NCBI GenBank assembly: GCA_022446815.1
Contig: JAKVCD010000001.1
Location: 170,997 to 234,996 of the forward strand
DNA: 64,000 bases
Direction of reading: 5' to 3'
Origin: Planctomycetota bacterium
GTDB taxonomy: Bacteria; Planctomycetota; UBA1135; GCA-002686595
Part shown: piece after piece, positions 21,376-36,252 of the stretch
How positions within the stretch are numbered: position 1 is the first letter of the stretch
Layout: every line of letters begins with the position of its first letter
Position numbers and translations under genes: made by a program
The notes under the pieces: model-generated
Databases searched by the model: none
What the model was told of the DNA's origin: nothing
The model's input: only the letters and a program-made list of their open reading frames with translations

Positions 21376-22110
21376 ATGAAGTACGCAGTCCTCGGAGACA
21401 TCCACTCCAACCTCACCGCGCTTGAAGCGGTGTTGGGAGCGGTCCGCGACAACGAGGTTGACTGCATTTTGAGCGTGGGAGATGTCGTGGGGTACGGGGC
21501 CGCCCCCTCCGACTGCATTCGCCTGCTTCGAGAAAGTGACGCGATCGTCGTGATGGGAAACCACGACGCCGCGGTCGTGGGGGAGCTGGACACCTTCTTT
21601 TTCAATCAACATGCGAAGGCCGCTGTGGAGTGGACGCGCCAGGCGATCAGCGGCGAAGAGATGGCGTGGCTAACCTGCCTCCCTCACACCTGGGAGGATG
21701 AATTCGTCAGCCTCGCGCACGGCTCATACAACAAGCCCGAGGACTTCAACTACGTCCAGACCCCGGCTGATGCGGACGCTTCACTTGAGCTCATCGAGCG
21801 ACCCGTGTGCTTCATCGGCCACACACACGTCCCTGTCTGCATGTTGCGATACGCCGACGACCCGCTGCGGACCGGCTACACGATGGACCCAGAGGTTGAC
21901 CTTAAGGATGCGATCGTCGCCCTAGTGAACGCTGGGAGCGTCGGCCAGCCGCGAGACGACGACCCCCAGACGGGCTATGTCCTGTACGACAGTGACACAC
22001 AAATCGTCACCTTCAGACGCATCCCCTATGACATTGAACGCGAGGTGCACCGCATCCGCTCCGCTGGGCTTCCAAGCGTCTTGGCGGAGCGACTCTATCT
22101 CGGCGTCTGA
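21376..22110 (+). CDS. calcineurin-like metallophosphoesterase (YfcE/ApaH-like)
   Basis: This cytoplasmic binuclear metal phosphoesterase has 244 residues. All core motifs are visible in order: GDIHSN at residue 7, GDVVGYGAAPSDC near 35, GNHDAAVVG near 60, SLAHGSY and GHTHVP near 150. The GDVVGYG-P-C form is common in planctomycete and cyanobacterial proteins of the diadenosine tetraphosphatase-like group, but the substrate is not established. The gene lies 4 bp behind the membrane-protein gene and converges with the HPr-fusion gene. Confidence 0.92.
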   Translation: MKYAVLGDIHSNLTALEAVLGAVRDNEVDCILSVGDVVGYGAAPSDCIRLLRESDAIVVMGNHDAAVVGELDTFFFNQHAKAAVEWTRQAISGEEMAWLTCLPHTWEDEFVSLAHGSYNKPEDFNYVQTPADADASLELIERPVCFIGHTHVPVCMLRYADDPLRTGYTMDPEVDLKDAIVALVNAGSVGQPRDDDPQTGYVLYDSDTQIVTFRRIPYDIEREVHRIRSAGLPSVLAERLYLGV

Positions 22111-22119
22111 CCCGAGAGA

Positions 22120-23424
22120 TCAGCGGCGCAAATAGCTGAGCTCTTCCGGAAGCTCCTCTAGGCCACGCTCGCCAAGCCCCGCCTCGAAGAGGCGCTGGAT
22201 GTCTGCGAGCGGGCGCTCATCCCCGGTGAAGAGATAGCGGCGAGCTCCGGTGTTCGAGCCAACGGTGATCATCATCTCGAGGATGGATCCAGCGTTGCAC
22301 TCGTTGCCTTCGACCTCACAGGTCACCGGCGTCCCGTGGTGCTCGACAATCTTCACGATCAAAGAGACGGGCCGCGCATGAAGGATCAGCTCATCCGGCA
22401 CATCGAGGACGAGCTCTTTTTGGTTTGTGTAAGACGGCAGGAGGCCTTCGGCATACTCGCGACCTAAGTGGATCATACGAACAGCCCACGCCAAGAGGTG
22501 GTCATAGGCGACCTCGATCACGCGGTCGCGATCGACGGCGCGCGCCACCAGCGCGGCAGCATCTTCAGAGCGATCGCTCTCGTGTCGCTCGACGAAGTGC
22601 ACCAAGTCTGTGACCGCCTCAAGCAAGTGGAAGGCTGAAGAGATGTGCCCGCGCATGCGGGGGAGTCGCTCATCACCCTCCTCAAGAACGGTGTTCTTGA
22701 TGTATGTGTCATAAGCAGACTGCAGGTTGTGAACTGAGGCCTCGTAAACACGCGCCCGCTCTTCTGTGCAAACCTCAGAGAGAAATCGTCTCCGCTCTGC
22801 AGCCGAGGTGAGCTCGTTCAAGCAGAGCTCATCGAACAGCGCGCACACGTCGAGGTAGCGTGAGGCGACCGATGCGATGTAGTGCTCTTCGTCTTCCTGG
22901 GTCTCGCCATCTAGGTTGCGAGGCAGCCGCAGCCTCTGGCGATCCGCTGTGTACTCATCGTCAGAGAAGCTCTCTCCAGGGAGGCTGATGCGGTGTCGAG
23001 CGAACTCAGCGAGGAGCTCTTTCATGAGCGCGCGCAGCGCGTCCTCCAAGAAGCTCCTAGCCGCCTCGACCGCCGAAAGGAATCGAGCCTCTTCGTTTGG
23101 CGCCGCCGACAAGTGTGTCCCATAAGAGTCAAAGCGTGACTCCATGTGCCTGACAGCGTGGCCAGCGTGGGCGAGTCCACGAGTGGATGCGACAAGCTCT
23201 CTCAACCCGCGATAGGTGCGGTTGTGGCTCGCGCCGTGGTCATCTAGGAAAGACTCGAAGACCTCGGACTCCACCGCGAGTTGATAGAAGTGCCTGCGCG
23301 TCCAGCCGCGCTTGTCCTTGCCAAGGAGGGCGTTGGACAGCCTCGCGAGGCGCTCTGCCTGATTCGCGGCGAGAGGCCTGAAGTCCTCTTCGCTGAGGAT
23401 CTCGTCGATAGATGTTTGGCTCAT
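22120..23424 (-). CDS. HPr phosphocarrier domain fused to a long unknown N-terminal region
   Basis: The protein has 434 residues from the ATG at 23424. Residues 1-335 are acidic, helical and unrecognised. The last 95 residues form an HPr-like domain. The phosphorylation-site motif LHARPVS (His at the position of HPr His15) is at 22372-22382, and CNAGSILEMMITVGSN contains the Ser equivalent to HPr Ser46. HPr normally passes phosphate from enzyme I to sugar permeases or is controlled by HPr kinase. No other PTS gene is in the window, so a regulatory role is more likely. A longer in-frame start exists up to 23694 but would run across the divergent sigma-factor gene and has unlikely composition, so it was not used. 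Confidence 0.8.
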   Translation of the reverse strand: MSQTSIDEILSEEDFRPLAANQAERLARLSNALLGKDKRGWTRRHFYQLAVESEVFESFLDDHGASHNRTYRGLRELVASTRGLAHAGHAVRHMESRFDSYGTHLSAAPNEEARFLSAVEAARSFLEDALRALMKELLAEFARHRISLPGESFSDDEYTADRQRLRLPRNLDGETQEDEEHYIASVASRYLDVCALFDELCLNELTSAAERRRFLSEVCTEERARVYEASVHNLQSAYDTYIKNTVLEEGDERLPRMRGHISSAFHLLEAVTDLVHFVERHESDRSEDAAALVARAVDRDRVIEVAYDHLLAWAVRMIHLGREYAEGLLPSYTNQKELVLDVPDELILHARPVSLIVKIVEHHGTPVTCEVEGNECNAGSILEMMITVGSNTGARRYLFTGDERPLADIQRLFEAGLGERGLEELPEELSYLRR

Positions 23425-23473
23425 GGGCGGTGGGGAGGCGCGGGGCGAGCGCCCGAGAGCACTAAGGTAACAG

Positions 23474-23516
23474 GCCCCGCAACCCCCTTGTGGGGCACCA
23501 GAAGCAAACTTCTGGT
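23474..23516 (+). promoter_or_regulatory. two tandem hairpins in the leader of the sigma-factor gene
   Basis: GCCCCGC (23474-23480) can pair with GTGGGGC (23490-23496). It is directly followed by a perfect 8-bp hairpin, ACCAGAAG-CAAA-CTTCTGGT (23497-23516). They lie 41 bases before the sigma-factor ATG in the divergent spacer. There is no T-run, so a structured leader or protein-binding element is more likely than a simple terminator. Confidence 0.45.
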
Positions 23517-23556
23517 CTGTCTCAAGACCCAGGCCCCTGCGCGTCGATTCGTGTCT

Positions 23557-24468
23557 ATGAGGTCGCCCCCCCGGTGGCCTGACACCCAGTCCATCCCCAC
23601 ACGCGCCACAAAGGAGTCCGCCATTTCTTCCGAACGCTGCCTGGAGACCTACCTCCAAGAGATCAATGAGGTCCCCCTCCTCACACCCGAACAAGAGCGC
23701 GAGCTAGGCGCAAAGATCCGACAAGGCGACATGGAGGCGCGAGAGCAGATGATCCGCGCGAACCTCCGCCTGGTCGTGTCGGTCGCCAAGATGTACACAG
23801 ACCGCGGGCTCTCTCTCCCCGACCTGATCGCTGAAGGGAACGTTGGCCTCTTGAAGGCCGCTGAGAAGTTCGACCCCGCTGCTGGCTGCCGCTTCTCCAC
23901 CTATGGCACCTGGTGGATCAAGCAGTCGATCCGTCGGGCGCTCACGAACACAGTGAAGGCCGTGCGCGTCCCTAGCTACATGACGGAGATCATCAGCAAG
24001 TGGCGCTCGGTGAGCCAAGAGCTCGGCTACCGCCTGGGTCGCCTGCCGAACGTTGAGGAGGTCGCGGAAGAGCTCGGCGTCCCGAAGAAGAACTGGCCGC
24101 TCTTGAAGCGCACCATTCAGATCTCAGGCCTCGGCGCACACATCTCTCTCGATGTGCTTTCCACGCACCAAGAGACCGTCGAAGACCCCGACGGGGAGTC
24201 CCCCGAAGAGGAGATGATGACGCTCGACCTGCTGCGCCGCCTGAGCGAACTCTTGGACACGATGGACGACCGAGAGGCCGCCATCCTCCGACTTCGGTAT
24301 GGCTTGGATGACGACACCGAGCCTATGACTCTGCGCTCAATTGGGGAGGTCGTCGGTCTCACCCGCGAGCGCGTAAGACAGATAGAGCGCGAAGCCCTCC
24401 GAAAGCTCTACGATGTCATGAGTGGAGACAAGCCGGACAACATCGCGGGAGAGGCAGACTGCGCCTGA
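23557..24468 (+). CDS. sigma-70 family RNA polymerase sigma factor (RpoD/group 2 type)
   Basis: The sigma factor has about 303 residues from the ATG at 23557. It directs RNA polymerase to promoters. Region 1.2 is LETYLQEINEVPLLTPEQE, region 2 contains NLRLVVSVAKMYTDRGL and FSTYGTWWIKQSIRRAL, and region 3 follows. Region 4 has DREAAILRLRYGLDD and GLTRERVRQIEREALRKL. Region 1.1 is absent and the protein is short, which fits a group 2 factor or a small primary factor; the window alone cannot decide. In-frame codons reach back to 23281 but would overlap the divergent HPr-fusion gene. The end overlaps the hemW start by 47 bases. Confidence 0.93.
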   Translation: MRSPPRWPDTQSIPTRATKESAISSERCLETYLQEINEVPLLTPEQERELGAKIRQGDMEAREQMIRANLRLVVSVAKMYTDRGLSLPDLIAEGNVGLLKAAEKFDPAAGCRFSTYGTWWIKQSIRRALTNTVKAVRVPSYMTEIISKWRSVSQELGYRLGRLPNVEEVAEELGVPKKNWPLLKRTIQISGLGAHISLDVLSTHQETVEDPDGESPEEEMMTLDLLRRLSELLDTMDDREAAILRLRYGLDDDTEPMTLRSIGEVVGLTRERVRQIEREALRKLYDVMSGDKPDNIAGEADCA

Positions 24469-31447: not shown

Positions 31448-31568
31448 GTGAACGATTCTAAGCGAGCGGGCTCAGCCTTTAAGACAGGCCCAAGTGGAGG
31501 GCGCCGTGCGAGGCTCTCTACGCGCCCACCGCTGGGCGCCGCCTTCGCTTCGGATACGATGGGGGTTC

Positions 31569-33197
31569 ATGGGCGCCACTACCCAGCTTGAATTTTTGCC
31601 CGCCGACATCGTCGGCCTCTCACCCCTCGCGCGCGCGGCGCTGGGGGGGGAGATCTCTGTGCCCGGAGTGAAGGTAGCACGTGCCGCCGCAGAGGTAGAG
31701 CAGCCGGCGGAGCGCTTTGACCCAGAAGCGCGCGCCTCCCTGGCCGAGCGTCTCGAGGAGGCCCTCAGCTGCATCTCGCCTCCGGTCGCCGCTCTCGAGT
31801 CTGTCCGCGCCCTGCGGGGGCCTGGCGTGAGCGTCGTCATGACTGGGCAGCAGCCCGGCCTAGCTTGCGGCCCACTTTACTCCCTGTGGAAAGGGCTGCA
31901 GGCGGTCGTGACCGCCCGTCGCCTCTCGAGCGAGTGGGGCCTTCCTGTGGTCCCGATGTTTTGGAACCACGCTGACGATCACGACATCGCCGAGGTCCAC
32001 CACACCTGGCTCGTGAACCGCAATCTCGACCTCCAAAAGGTCGGCCTCGCTGGGATGTCGAGCGGGAGACAGCCCTTCTCGCGCATCGAGCTCAGCGAGG
32101 AGAAGAACAAGCTCGCAGCCTTCGCCGGCCTCATGCGAGAGGTTCACGGAGACCACCTCTATATAGAGGAGGCTATAGAGGCTCTGGCGCCTCGCGACGG
32201 CGAGAGTCTCGCGCGGGCCTTCACCCGCGGAATGACCGCTCTCCTTGGACATCACGGCCTCGTCGTCTTCGAGCCTGACTGGCTCAGAGAAGACCTCTCC
32301 GCAGCCCTCGCGCGGCTCGTCGGCGATGACGCCCCTGGCGCGCTCGCCCTCGGAGAGGCAGACCTCAAGGCCGCCGGGCACGAGGTGCCTCTCCCCTCGG
32401 CGGAGGCCGCCTTGGTCTACCGAGTAGATGAGGGCGGTCGCCGGCCCCTGCGCCCAGGGGGCGAGGGATACCAATTCGACGGAGAGAGCGGTTCTCGCAC
32501 CGCTGCCGAGCTGGCCGCAGAGATCGTCCAAGAGCCAGAGGCTTACTCCGCCGGCGCGCTGCTCCGCCCGCTGGTTCAAGACATCACCTTGCCTGTCTGC
32601 GCCTACATCGGAGGCTGGGGTGAGCTCGGCTACCAGGCTCAGCTTGGTCAATTGAGGCTGCAAGCTGGGGCGCCGACGACTGCCTTCTTACCGCGGCTTT
32701 CGATCAGCCTCACCAACCCCGAGATCCGCGCCTCCCTAGAGACCCTCGAGTGCGGCGTGGGCGACGTCCTCGCTGCGCAGGGAGAGTGGAGCTCGGCTGA
32801 AGAGGAGGCGCCGCAGCCTGAGGTGCTCGAATCTCTTCGCGCTTTAGCGGAGCGCTCCCGAGCCGAACTGCTCGACCAGCGCGGCCCTCTCTCTCAGCTT
32901 GATCCTCGACTCGCGGGCGGGCTCGACCGAGCGGCAGGTCAGGTAAAAGACGCGATTGAGAAGGTCGTAAAGAAGGCCGAGCGGGTTCACGCTAACCAAA
33001 CTGGTCGCGGTCGCCGCCACGAGCGCAGAGTGAACCACGCCCTCTCTCCGCGCGGCATCCCGCAAGAGCGCGCTCTCGGCCCGCTGCCCTTCGTCGCCAA
33101 GTTCGGCTTCGAGTGGGTCGGGGCGCTCGCAGAAGAGCTCGACCCCTTCTCTCCGGAGCATATCCACTGTGCCCTGGGAGAGTCTCCTGAGGCCTGA
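31569..33197 (+). CDS. bshC: bacillithiol synthase, cysteine-adding enzyme BshC
   Basis: BshC adds cysteine to glucosaminyl-malate, the last step of bacillithiol synthesis. The 542-residue length fits. Diagnostic segments are VVMTGQQPGLACGPLYSLWKG (about residue 85), PMFWNHADDHDIAEVHH (about residue 125) and, near the C-terminus, HALSPRGIPQERALG. The ATG at 31569 was chosen because it gives the usual N-terminus; in-frame codons back to 31494 have improbable composition. It heads the run bshC-bshB1-parA-bshA-cysteine desulfurase. All three Bsh genes are present, so the thiol is probably made. Confidence 0.93.
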   Translation: MGATTQLEFLPADIVGLSPLARAALGGEISVPGVKVARAAAEVEQPAERFDPEARASLAERLEEALSCISPPVAALESVRALRGPGVSVVMTGQQPGLACGPLYSLWKGLQAVVTARRLSSEWGLPVVPMFWNHADDHDIAEVHHTWLVNRNLDLQKVGLAGMSSGRQPFSRIELSEEKNKLAAFAGLMREVHGDHLYIEEAIEALAPRDGESLARAFTRGMTALLGHHGLVVFEPDWLREDLSAALARLVGDDAPGALALGEADLKAAGHEVPLPSAEAALVYRVDEGGRRPLRPGGEGYQFDGESGSRTAAELAAEIVQEPEAYSAGALLRPLVQDITLPVCAYIGGWGELGYQAQLGQLRLQAGAPTTAFLPRLSISLTNPEIRASLETLECGVGDVLAAQGEWSSAEEEAPQPEVLESLRALAERSRAELLDQRGPLSQLDPRLAGGLDRAAGQVKDAIEKVVKKAERVHANQTGRGRRHERRVNHALSPRGIPQERALGPLPFVAKFGFEWVGALAEELDPFSPEHIHCALGESPEA

Positions 33198-33234
33198 TCA
33201 CCACCACCTCCGCTAGAGCGGTTAGGCTCAAGGT

Positions 33235-33945
33235 ATGAAGCTCGACTGTTTAGTCATCGCGGCCCACCCCGACGACGCCGAGATCTCTGTAGGCGGGACG
33301 CTCTTGAAGCTGGCGCAAGCAGGCAAGCAGATCGGGGTCGTCGACGTGACGAGGGGAGAGCTCGGAACTCGCGGTACATCAGAGGACCGCGCGCGAGAAG
33401 CCGCTGCAGCGAGCGAGCTGCTCGGGCTGGCCGTGCGCCACAACCTCGACGCGGGAGACGGCCGCGTCGTGGTCACTGCTGCCCTGCGTGAGCGCCTCGC
33501 CGCGATCATTCGAGAGCACGCCCCAGAGCTGGTGCTCTGCCACCACACAGATGACCTGCACCCGGATCACGCTGCCTCTGGCCAACTGGCACGGGACGCT
33601 TGGTATCTCGCTGGGCTCGGGCGGCTCGCTGAAGAGGTTGGAGGCGCGCCCGCGCACCGCCCCGAGCGGCTCTATGAGTTCCCAGGTCATGTCCCCTTCG
33701 ACCCAACCTTTGTCGTGGACATCGAGCCCGTCTGGGAACAAAAGGTCGCCCTGGTTCAAGCTTACGCCTCTCAGCTCGCCCCCAGAGACGCCTCTGATGA
33801 GGGCGCGCACTTCCTATTCGGTGCCGACATCATCCAGCGTATGGAGACTAAGGCCCGCTTCTTCGGGGAGCGAGCAGGCATGAAGTTGGGGGAGCCCCTC
33901 CTCCACAAGGGCCCCCTCCCCGCCTTTGACCCGCTGCTGGGCTGA
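33235..33945 (+). CDS. bshB1: GlcNAc-malate deacetylase BshB1 (PIG-L family)
   Basis: This zinc deacetylase removes acetyl from N-acetylglucosaminyl-malate in bacillithiol synthesis. The 236-residue protein has the PIG-L zinc motif AAHPDDAEISVGG near residue 10 and the second zinc ligand in HTDDLHPDHAASG near residue 105. TRGELGTRGTSEDRAREA is characteristic of BshB1. It starts 38 bp after bshC and is followed by parA after a 147-bp spacer. Relatives act in mycothiol synthesis (MshB), but the neighbouring bshC and bshA decide the assignment. Confidence 0.94.
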   Translation: MKLDCLVIAAHPDDAEISVGGTLLKLAQAGKQIGVVDVTRGELGTRGTSEDRAREAAAASELLGLAVRHNLDAGDGRVVVTAALRERLAAIIREHAPELVLCHHTDDLHPDHAASGQLARDAWYLAGLGRLAEEVGGAPAHRPERLYEFPGHVPFDPTFVVDIEPVWEQKVALVQAYASQLAPRDASDEGAHFLFGADIIQRMETKARFFGERAGMKLGEPLLHKGPLPAFDPLLG

Positions 33946-34092
33946 GCGCCCGGCGCGGAATGAGGGCCGTTCGCGCGACTCTTCTCAGCCTTTCTCGCTA
34001 AAATGCTCGCGGCGGCCGGCCCTAATCCCGACCCTTCGCCGGGTCGTGCGCGCGTGCTCCACACACCGTAAAGGCCGGCCCGCCACCTCTCC

Positions 34093-35070
34093 ATGCGCTG
34101 CATCGCCGTCATCAACCAGAAAGGGGGGGTCGGAAAGACCACCACCACAGCCAACCTCGGCGCCGCCCTCGCTGAGCAGGGCCGCCGGGTCGTGGTCGTC
34201 GACCTAGACGCCCAAGGGAACCTCACAACCCACCTCGGGCTCGAGGCTCCTTGTGGCTCACCCTCCATATACACAGTCCTCTTAGGCCAGAGCTCCTTCG
34301 CTGAGGCGCTGCGCGAGACGAGCACACCACGTCTCTCGGTCGTCCCCAGCAACATCGACCTCTCGGGCGCAGAGCTCGAGCTCGCTAGCGCGATTGGGCG
34401 CGAGACCCTCCTCCAAGACGCGATCAAGGCGTGGCGTGGCGAGGGCGAAGCTCCCGCCGACTACGTCCTCTTTGACTGTCCCCCCAGCCTCGGACTCTTA
34501 AGCATCAACGGCCTCGCGGCCGCGCAAGAGGTCCAGCTTGTCGTACAGACGGAGTTCTTGGCCCTCCAAGGCATGAGCAAGCTCGTAGATGTCGTCCAAC
34601 TGATCAGGCGGCGCATGAACCCTGAGCTCGCGATCTCTGGGATCATCCCCTGTCTCTATGACTCACGTCTACGCCTCGCTCGCGAGGTCTTGGCTGAGAT
34701 CCGCCGGTACTTCCCCGGGGAGGTCTTTAAGACAGCGGTCCGCGCGAACGTCAAGTTGGCCGAGTCGCCCAGCTTTGGGCAGCACGTCCTCGAATACGCG
34801 CCCAGCTCCAACGGCGCCATGGACTATCGCAAGCTCGCTTGTGAAGTGATCGCGCAAGAGTCCAGAGACTCCGAGCTCTCCGAGCTCCCTCCCGCGAGGT
34901 CACTAGAAGAGCTCGCGAAAGAGGCCCGAGCGGCCGCCGCCAAAGAATCCGTCGTTGAATTGACGCCTACGCCCCCTGCCGAGGGCGAAGAGGCTGGCTC
35001 CGCTGTTCGAGCGGAAGACCTGCCGCCCCTGCCGACCGAGGCCTTCAAGGCGCCCGCAGAGGCGGAGTGA
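34093..35070 (+). CDS. parA: chromosome partitioning ATPase ParA (Soj family)
   Basis: ParA is the nucleoid-binding ATPase that moves ParB-parS complexes. The 325-residue protein has the deviant Walker A motif NQKGGVGKTTTTANLG at residue 8, the switch DLDAQGNLTTHLG, the Walker B region VLFDCPPSLGLLSING and the EFLALQGM segment. This is the full Soj-type set without an N-terminal DNA-binding domain. The C-terminal 60 residues are acidic, Ala/Pro-rich and probably disordered. Unusually it lies 14 kb from parB, inserted between bshB1 and bshA. The bshA start follows its stop by 4 bp, suggesting co-transcription. Confidence 0.95.
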   Translation: MRCIAVINQKGGVGKTTTTANLGAALAEQGRRVVVVDLDAQGNLTTHLGLEAPCGSPSIYTVLLGQSSFAEALRETSTPRLSVVPSNIDLSGAELELASAIGRETLLQDAIKAWRGEGEAPADYVLFDCPPSLGLLSINGLAAAQEVQLVVQTEFLALQGMSKLVDVVQLIRRRMNPELAISGIIPCLYDSRLRLAREVLAEIRRYFPGEVFKTAVRANVKLAESPSFGQHVLEYAPSSNGAMDYRKLACEVIAQESRDSELSELPPARSLEELAKEARAAAAKESVVELTPTPPAEGEEAGSAVRAEDLPPLPTEAFKAPAEAE

Positions 35071-35073
35071 GCC

Positions 35074-36252
35074 ATGGTGACCCCTGACGGTGAGCTAAAC
35101 ACCGGCTCCCTGGGGATCGGCGTCCTCTGTCACCCCACCTATGGCGGCTCGGGGGTTGTTGCGAGCGAGCTCGCCCTTGCGCTCGCTGACCGTGGACACC
35201 GCATCCACCTCTTCAGCTACGCCGTCCCGCCCCGCCTCGCGCGCTCCTCAGGGGCTGTGGAGGTTCACGTCGCGCAAGGCGCGCCCTATCCGCTCTTTGA
35301 AGCCCCGCCCCATGACCTCGCGATCACATCCGCGGTCTTGAATGTGCACGAGGCTGAGGGCTTGGACGTTGTCCATGCGCACTACGCCCTCCCGCACGCG
35401 ATGAGCGCTGTTCTAGCCGGGCACGCGGCGCCCGGGGTTCGGCCAGGGCCCTCCCCGCGAGTGGTCACGACGCTGCACGGGACGGATATCACCCTGGTCG
35501 GGCGGCAGCCGAGCTATCGACCCCTCTTGCGCTACGCCCTCGAGGCGAGCCACGCAGTGACCGCCGTCAGCGAAGACCTCGCAATGCGCAGCATGGAAGC
35601 CTTCTACCCTCGGCCGGATGGCGGTCGCCCCGAGGTCGTCGTCGTGCCGAACTTCGTGAACTCCGTTGAGTTTTGTCCTGCGACGACAGCCCGCCAAGAA
35701 GGGCCTCCGCGGGCGATTCATGTCTCCAACTTCCGCCCTGTGAAACGAGTCCCTTGGCTCGTCGAAGCCTTCATTGAGGCGACCGCGGGGACCGATGCGC
35801 GCCTCGTCTTGATCGGCGACGGCCCAGACCGAGACCTCTCTGTTTCCCGCGCGCGTGAGCTCGGGGCCTCAGAGCGAATCTCCTTCCTCGGCCAGCGCGA
35901 CGTCCTCCCCAGCCTCCTTACGGACGCCGACGTCTTCCTCCTCGCGAGCACGGAAGAGTCCTTCGGGCTCTCCGCGCTCGAGGCCATGTCTTGCGGGGTG
36001 CCGGTCGTCGCCCCGCGTGTTGGAGGCATTCCGGAAGTCGTGAGGGATGGAGTCACGGGCTGGCTCTCGCCGCCCGATAGTCGGGGCGCCTACATCGCGG
36101 CCATTCAAGAGGCCCTGAACAACCCTGTCGCCCGCGCTAAACGCGGCCAAGCGGCCCGCGAGGACGCCGTAGATCGCTTCTCTCTCGACAGCGTCGTCGC
36201 GAGCTACGAAGGCCTCTACGCGCGCCTCCTCGAAGAGGGCGCGGACTCGTGA
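35074..36252 (+). CDS. bshA: bacillithiol synthesis glycosyltransferase BshA
   Basis: BshA transfers GlcNAc from UDP-GlcNAc to L-malate, the first committed step of bacillithiol synthesis. The 392-residue GT4 enzyme shows the BshA N-terminal pattern GVLCHPTYGGSGVVASELA, VVHAHYALPHAMSAVLA and TTLHGTDITLVG. The donor-site segments are VSNFRPVKRVPWLVEAF and STEESFGLSALEAMSCGVP. It follows parA by 4 bp and overlaps the next gene as GTGA, so parA, bshA and the desulfurase gene form a tight unit. Confidence 0.94.
   Translation: MVTPDGELNTGSLGIGVLCHPTYGGSGVVASELALALADRGHRIHLFSYAVPPRLARSSGAVEVHVAQGAPYPLFEAPPHDLAITSAVLNVHEAEGLDVVHAHYALPHAMSAVLAGHAAPGVRPGPSPRVVTTLHGTDITLVGRQPSYRPLLRYALEASHAVTAVSEDLAMRSMEAFYPRPDGGRPEVVVVPNFVNSVEFCPATTARQEGPPRAIHVSNFRPVKRVPWLVEAFIEATAGTDARLVLIGDGPDRDLSVSRARELGASERISFLGQRDVLPSLLTDADVFLLASTEESFGLSALEAMSCGVPVVAPRVGGIPEVVRDGVTGWLSPPDSRGAYIAAIQEALNNPVARAKRGQAAREDAVDRFSLDSVVASYEGLYARLLEEGADS

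Follow-up and report, generated by a model that had tools for sequence, protein, structure and literature searches.

What does an HPr domain do at the end of a long chain in which no other PTS domain is recognizable, and what might the remainder of that chain contribute? The question is raised by a gene on contig C1 of a Planctomycetota genome, within the stretch of 64,000 nucleotides analysed here (the window). The frame runs from an ATG at 23424 to a TGA at 22120-22122 and encodes 434 amino acids; residue numbers count from this ATG and are one lower than in the P0001 numbering, which includes one extra upstream codon. Comparison with the closest relative, L004 (80% identical), shows 69, 41 and 210 differences at the first, second and third positions of the 434 codons, indicating that the frame is under protein-level selection. 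Judging from sequence profiles and structural models, the best reading of the product is a putative phosphorylation-controlled switch, as the original prediction had it, and the original interpretation as a whole is partly supported. We consider it probable that this Planctomycetota protein acts as a regulator or effector linked to the PTS, and that enzyme I (EI) phosphorylates H349 and thereby controls the N-terminal domain (N-domain). The gene and its product comprise the following features.

22120..23424, (-) strand: gene for the HPr-fusion protein, stop codon included; 434 aa, supported by relatives and by the codon-position pattern
22426..23424, (-) strand: N-domain, residues 1-333; two four-helix bundles predicted by AlphaFold2
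22582..22764, (-) strand: best-conserved core of the N-domain, residues 221-281, by column conservation; Y238, D239 and R258 constant
22177..22422, (-) strand: HPr domain, residues 335-416, by profiles and predicted fold
22378..22380, (-) strand: His349, corresponding to His15, the phospho-acceptor of HPr; present in 88/88 members, codon checked
22285..22287, (-) strand: Ser380, equivalent of Ser46 of HPr; present in 82/88 members, codon checked
22123..22176, (-) strand: C-terminal tail, residues 417-434, extending beyond the third HPr helix; conserved, as judged by alignment columns

As judged by profile matches and by the predicted fold, residues 335-416 constitute a complete HPr domain, in agreement with the C-terminal HPr-like domain originally predicted. 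With the fusion protein alone as the query, both profiles scored below their curated cut-offs (TIGR01003, E of 2.5e-7 and 30.6 bits against 47.9; PF00381 in hmmscan, E of 1.7e-4 and 22.0 bits against 23), and in the genome search, PF00381 gave 24.6 bits for the same domain, marked above the cut-off. Across the family, 38 of the 39 members have a PF00381 match at E up to 1, with a best value of 3e-9, and the 26 sequences that a sequence-profile search of the PDB retrieved under the same limit are HPr-family chains without exception (HPr, Crh and NPr). In the model, built on 8 sequences, four strands and three helices follow one another in the beta-alpha-beta-beta-alpha-beta-alpha order of an HPr fold. 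Superposition on known structures of the HPr family gave Z scores of 9.1 to 11.1 among the matches listed, the best being 3le1_A (Z 11.1, 1.9 A over 82 residues, 23% identity).

Typical HPr is a free protein of about 85-90 residues. The fusion protein shares with the HPr/NPr phosphocarriers (PF00381, TIGR01003) the fold, the acceptor His followed by Arg and Pro, and the Ser before the second helix, but here the HPr part is a C-terminal domain set on a 333-residue helical domain and provided with a conserved tail, and an ordinary HPr is encoded separately in the same genome. Given that the domain is fused within a 434-aa chain, the product is best described as an HPr-domain protein rather than a free phosphocarrier. 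Neither the Pfam matches of the chain itself nor the 25 of 32 Pfam families listed for the 39 members include a second PTS domain (IIA, IIB or EI), so that a role as a sugar-transport component appears unlikely. Multiphosphoryl transfer proteins of the FruB type, as described in PMC2405797, likewise hold HPr within a longer chain; however, the Pfam matches of the fusion show its HPr joined to neither IIA nor EI nor any further PTS domain, and this assignment was rejected.

Both regulatory sites originally pointed out in this domain are present: the His of LHARP is H349 and the Ser of CNAGSILEM is S380. Conservation was assessed in an alignment of 88 distinct members; a smaller set of 39 members reaches down to 24% identity. 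No loss of the His was observed among the relatives, as H349, together with R351 and P352, is constant in all 88 members, including six long variants. These variants (L115-L120; 512-528 aa) carry an insert of approximately 80 residues between HPr helix 2 and strand 4. S380, like parts of helix 2, varies across the alignment, being Ser in 82 of the 88 members, with the exceptions of L114 and five of the six long variants, and in sequence terms the Ser provides weaker evidence than the His for a regulatory HPr role. The tail is as well conserved as the HPr domain itself (mean of 0.67 for residues 417-433 versus 0.62), with G418, E419 and L432 found in 99%, 97% and 100% of the members, respectively.

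This pattern bears on an alternative that we regard as unlikely, namely, a docking module: in one of its states, the HPr domain would attach to EI or to some other partner from the PTS, holding the N-domain there, without itself becoming phosphorylated. The variability of S380 and of helix 2, and the large insert tolerated by the long relatives, would be compatible with such a function, and an HPr signature can persist in a domain that serves for docking alone. However, docking need not preserve the acceptor His, whereas the His, Arg and Pro are invariant even in the long relatives. A phosphorylation-controlled switch accommodates this constancy and remains the preferred reading.

The approximately 335 residues that precede the HPr domain had been described as helical and unrecognized, and this description stands: residues 1-333 are predicted to form helical bundles and no family was recognized. 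Predicted alone from 8 sequences with AlphaFold2 (pLDDT 86.2, pTM 0.87), the N-domain is predicted to consist of two four-helix bundles, with helices within residues 12-143 and 176-332, the grouping being read off the helix list of the model. Among the 25 of 32 Pfam families listed for the 39 members, none accounts for the N-domain, and neither PRD nor CHAD is present; the PDB sequence-profile search matched only HPr-family chains at E up to 1, and Foldseek yielded no match with E under 0.001. The best VIA match of the N-domain is a designed protein (Z 12.7), in a range common for bundles. CHAD domains are also helical bundles, and bundle 2 aligns with 6qva (Z 8.8, 3.8 A, 136 residues) and 6qv5 (Z 7.4, 3.9 A, 130 residues), but only one bundle aligns and the Z scores are within the range common for bundles. 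The lack of a recognized family does not show that the fold is new. An internal duplication giving rise to the two bundles was considered and is unsupported (hhalign probability 0.6%). PRD regulators, such as LicT and LevR, contain helical domains that are functionally governed by PTS phosphorylation, the regulator being a substrate of HPr; the fusion protein resembles them in outline, but here the HPr domain sits within the chain itself.

Conservation within the N-domain is uneven, with a column mean of 0.70 for residues 221-281 versus 0.45 for residues 12-143. Y238, D239 and R258 are invariant in all 88 members (conservation 1.00), H266 is constant in the 39-member set and present in 97% of the larger alignment, and E221, R225, H232, H276 and R280 are conserved at 97-99%. 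In helix 221-241, the 7 positions conserved in at least 90% of the members lean to one side (resultant 0.69, reached in 0.5% of random draws, uncorrected), and the 10 such positions of helix 253-280 gave a resultant of 0.48 (2.7% of random draws, uncorrected); for helix 43-62, the resultant of 0.76 corresponds to 18% of random draws. The location of conserved His, Arg, Tyr and Asp on two neighbouring helices of the model suggests a pocket for a ligand, possibly an anion, or an active site. The putative spatial clustering of these residues is read from helix positions in models derived from 8 sequences.

The search for HPr, EIIA_2 and EI families placed all other matches on contigs C7, C41, C40 and C36 and none on C1, consistent with the earlier remark that the surroundings of the gene contain no PTS enzyme. 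The genome does encode a complete EI of 607 aa and two EIIA-type proteins, all away from the fusion locus. A second match to the EI N-terminal family (G000:C36:104942-105241; L125, L127) lies in a 186-aa frame with no other EI domain, possibly a truncated second EI; in many genomes of the order, the corresponding second match sits in a long frame. The ordinary HPr gene adjoins genes for an EIIA_2 protein, the ribosome-hibernation protein S30AE and RpoN, and the second EIIA_2 match is on contig C41. Because HPr and an EIIA_2-type gene lie beside the S30AE and RpoN genes, the general PTS chain of this genome looks regulatory. Searches for HPr kinase found none in this genome and no full-length one among the 147 genomes of the order, with short matches in 6 of the 147, none listed extending beyond positions 9-59 of 171 and one being over the cut-off. 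B. subtilis has an HPr kinase gene, and both searches were silent in that control too; thus, we do not claim absence of the kinase.

Matches to EI (PF05524) were detected in 146 of the 147 genomes, mostly two in each, and HPr-family matches also in 146, G131 of family f8 being without any. Using one protein query, we found the fusion in 98 of the 147 genomes: 68/78 in family f1, 5/5 in f3 to f6 and 25/26 in f7. It was not found in f2 (0/7), in f8 (0/31), in one f7 genome and in ten f1 genomes, one of which (G063) is a single contig. The family is dispensable; many of the fusion-negative genomes are incomplete. At least two HPr-family matches occur in 87 of the 98 fusion-bearing genomes, compared to a single one in 7/7 f2 and 30/31 f8 genomes, which indicates that the fusion supplements the general HPr as an additional one. 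Beyond the order, a profile search of 392 genomes of the phylum gave matches in 126, of which at least 84 reach into the N-domain (matches listed down to E near 1e-3) and the others cover the HPr part. Six of the seven named relatives are recorded as Planctomycetota or Planctomycetaceae, and L004 is labelled Deltaproteobacteria, perhaps wrongly. A literature search covering few subscription journals gave, among the titles listed, none on this HPr-fusion architecture. The fusion is an uncharacterized family of Planctomycetota.

Two genes neighbour the fusion gene.

23557..24468, (+) strand: divergent sigma-70 family gene with regions 1.2, 2, 3 and 4; chosen start 23557, the mechanical ORF starting at 23281
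21376..22110, (+) strand: calcineurin-like metallophosphoesterase gene, convergent with the fusion gene and separated from it by 9 bases

The divergent pairing with the sigma gene, which the original prediction had highlighted, is conserved in 44 of 47 loci (exceptions L052, L057 and L069). The sigma gene is also present in 14/14 loci of distant full-length members (L102-L114 and L121), often at 1 to 3 kb, and in L114 on the same strand as the fusion. In L121, a WcaJ-type sugar transferase gene lies between the two, and, by eye, the intervening gene of L105, L109, L110, L112 and L113 resembles it. In 36 of the 47 loci, the phosphoesterase gene follows downstream of the fusion at a distance of up to 2.5 kb, encoded on the opposite strand; it was not found nearby in the other 11, misses that include contig ends. 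In three f25 loci (L102, L103 and L104), the two genes are direct neighbours on one strand, and in L103 they occupy one reading frame of 681 aa (L103:5851-7986), which may reflect either a genuine fusion or an indel. Around the six long variants, no sigma gene was found within approximately 6 kb, except for a weak match in L115 (50 bits); no neighbour group is common to more than two of these six loci, ORFs overlapping the gene itself being excluded, and two contain a GH13-type gene. The fusion was not detected at twelve loci of families f2 and f8: at seven of these, the sigma and HemW matches face the phosphoesterase, and the other five are without a sigma match. Synteny extends over the entire surrounding region, with dnaA, parA and parB, so that the sigma pairing is weak evidence on function. 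Near the replication-origin genes, the window also contains bacillithiol genes at 31494-36252, with matches to BshA (381 bits, cut-off 273.7), BshB1 (218.9, cut-off 182.5) and BshC (258.7, just under the cut-off of 265.8).

The phosphoesterase brings up the idea of an HPr-regulated enzyme with its active site in the second bundle, possibly linked to this neighbour, which we hold to be doubtful. The constancy of Y238, D239 and R258, along with the near-invariant His, Arg and Glu residues, would suit an active site, and the recurrent proximity of the phosphoesterase, up to the single frame of L103, would suit a link. Yet, no enzyme family matches the 39 members convincingly among the 25 of 32 Pfam families listed, and the phosphoesterase also lies beside the sigma-HemW pair where no fusion was detected (7 of 12 loci) and was not found in 11 of the 47 fusion loci. 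Compared to a dedicated enzyme, a switch in which the N-domain responds to the phosphorylation state of its own HPr domain remains our favoured reading.

As for the sigma gene, control shared with the fusion had been envisaged. The region between the two genes contains one candidate element for each.

23464..23473, (-) strand: extended -10-like element CTGNTANNNT before the fusion gene; found in 27/48 upstream regions
23522..23548, (+) strand: bipartite promoter-like element TCAAG-N18-CGAT before the sigma gene; found in 43/48 upstream regions at fixed spacing

The 48 upstream regions are those of this genome, of the named contigs L004-L010 and of f1 genomes. On the fusion strand, CTGNTANNNT occurs in 27 of them, versus a mean of 0.7 in mononucleotide shuffles. 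On the sigma strand, TCAAG-N18-CGA[TA] occurs in 43, with none at a spacing of 17 or 19; at other spacings from 8 to 31, there are 2 at 22, 1 at 30 and 1 at 31, and the reverse strand has 1 at 25. The element is missing in L009, L032, L037, L079 and L094, and was not found in most f7 members. The genome has 8 sites, as many as its reversed control, and the window has 1 against 0.62 expected, so that the element is enriched in neither. It is similar to promoters used by alternative sigma factors, although it does not match the FliA consensus exactly; a scan of 22000-23700 with the sigma-70 consensus found no promoter-like site. An inverted repeat at 23497-23516 is perfect here, and one arm differs in L004. 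The sigma element also precedes the sigma gene at 5 of the 7 loci examined from fusion-free genomes (at N18 in L155, L157 and L164, at N17 in L163 and L165); L156, where the contig end cuts the sigma gene, and L160 yielded no result. Given that each gene has its own strand-specific promoter-like element, the two seem to have separate start signals, and with the sigma element persisting where no fusion was detected, both the predicted shared control and an operator shared with the sigma gene are unsupported.

An anti-sigma factor or sigma modulator is a highly improbable reading. The N-domain would then bind the neighbouring sigma factor and HPr would release it, which would unite in one chain what E. 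coli has as two separate proteins: according to PMC8509676, unphosphorylated HPr binds the helical anti-sigma factor Rsd there. The likeness of an HPr acting on a helical protein tied to sigma control and the widespread pairing with the sigma gene speak for it, but the sigma gene is present without the fusion in 7 of the 12 f2 and f8 loci, five of the six long-variant loci show no sigma match within approximately 6 kb and the sixth a weak one, the pairing lies in a syntenic region, and Rsd is not among the structural matches listed for the N-domain (which does not imply exclusion).

Under the preferred reading of a PTS-linked switch, EI would pass PEP-derived phosphate to H349, the HPr domain would contact the N-domain or a partner differently with and without the phosphate, and the activity of the N-domain would thereby track the PEP/pyruvate state reported by a regulatory, RpoN-linked PTS. 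More tentatively, and with the odds somewhat against it, the family might represent a new class of one-chain PTS switch, in which an unrecognized double-bundle sensor or enzyme with a constant His/Arg/Tyr/Asp pocket is governed by EI phosphorylating its own HPr in cis, providing many Planctomycetota with a readout of the PEP state beside the RpoN-linked PTS. A 2008 survey states that organisms with group-R EI, including Planctomycetes, harbour no PTS transporters, some Proteobacteria excepted, and that no functional information on EI-R was available at that time, a role in the sigma-54 regulon being proposed (PMC2405797). The role of the PTS in Planctomycetes, despite the presence of EI and HPr, is little known. 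As a conserved protein with an HPr domain of its own, the fusion is an immediate candidate for one of the outputs of the planctomycete EI-HPr chain, and H349A, one mutation in one gene, offers a testable handle on that output.
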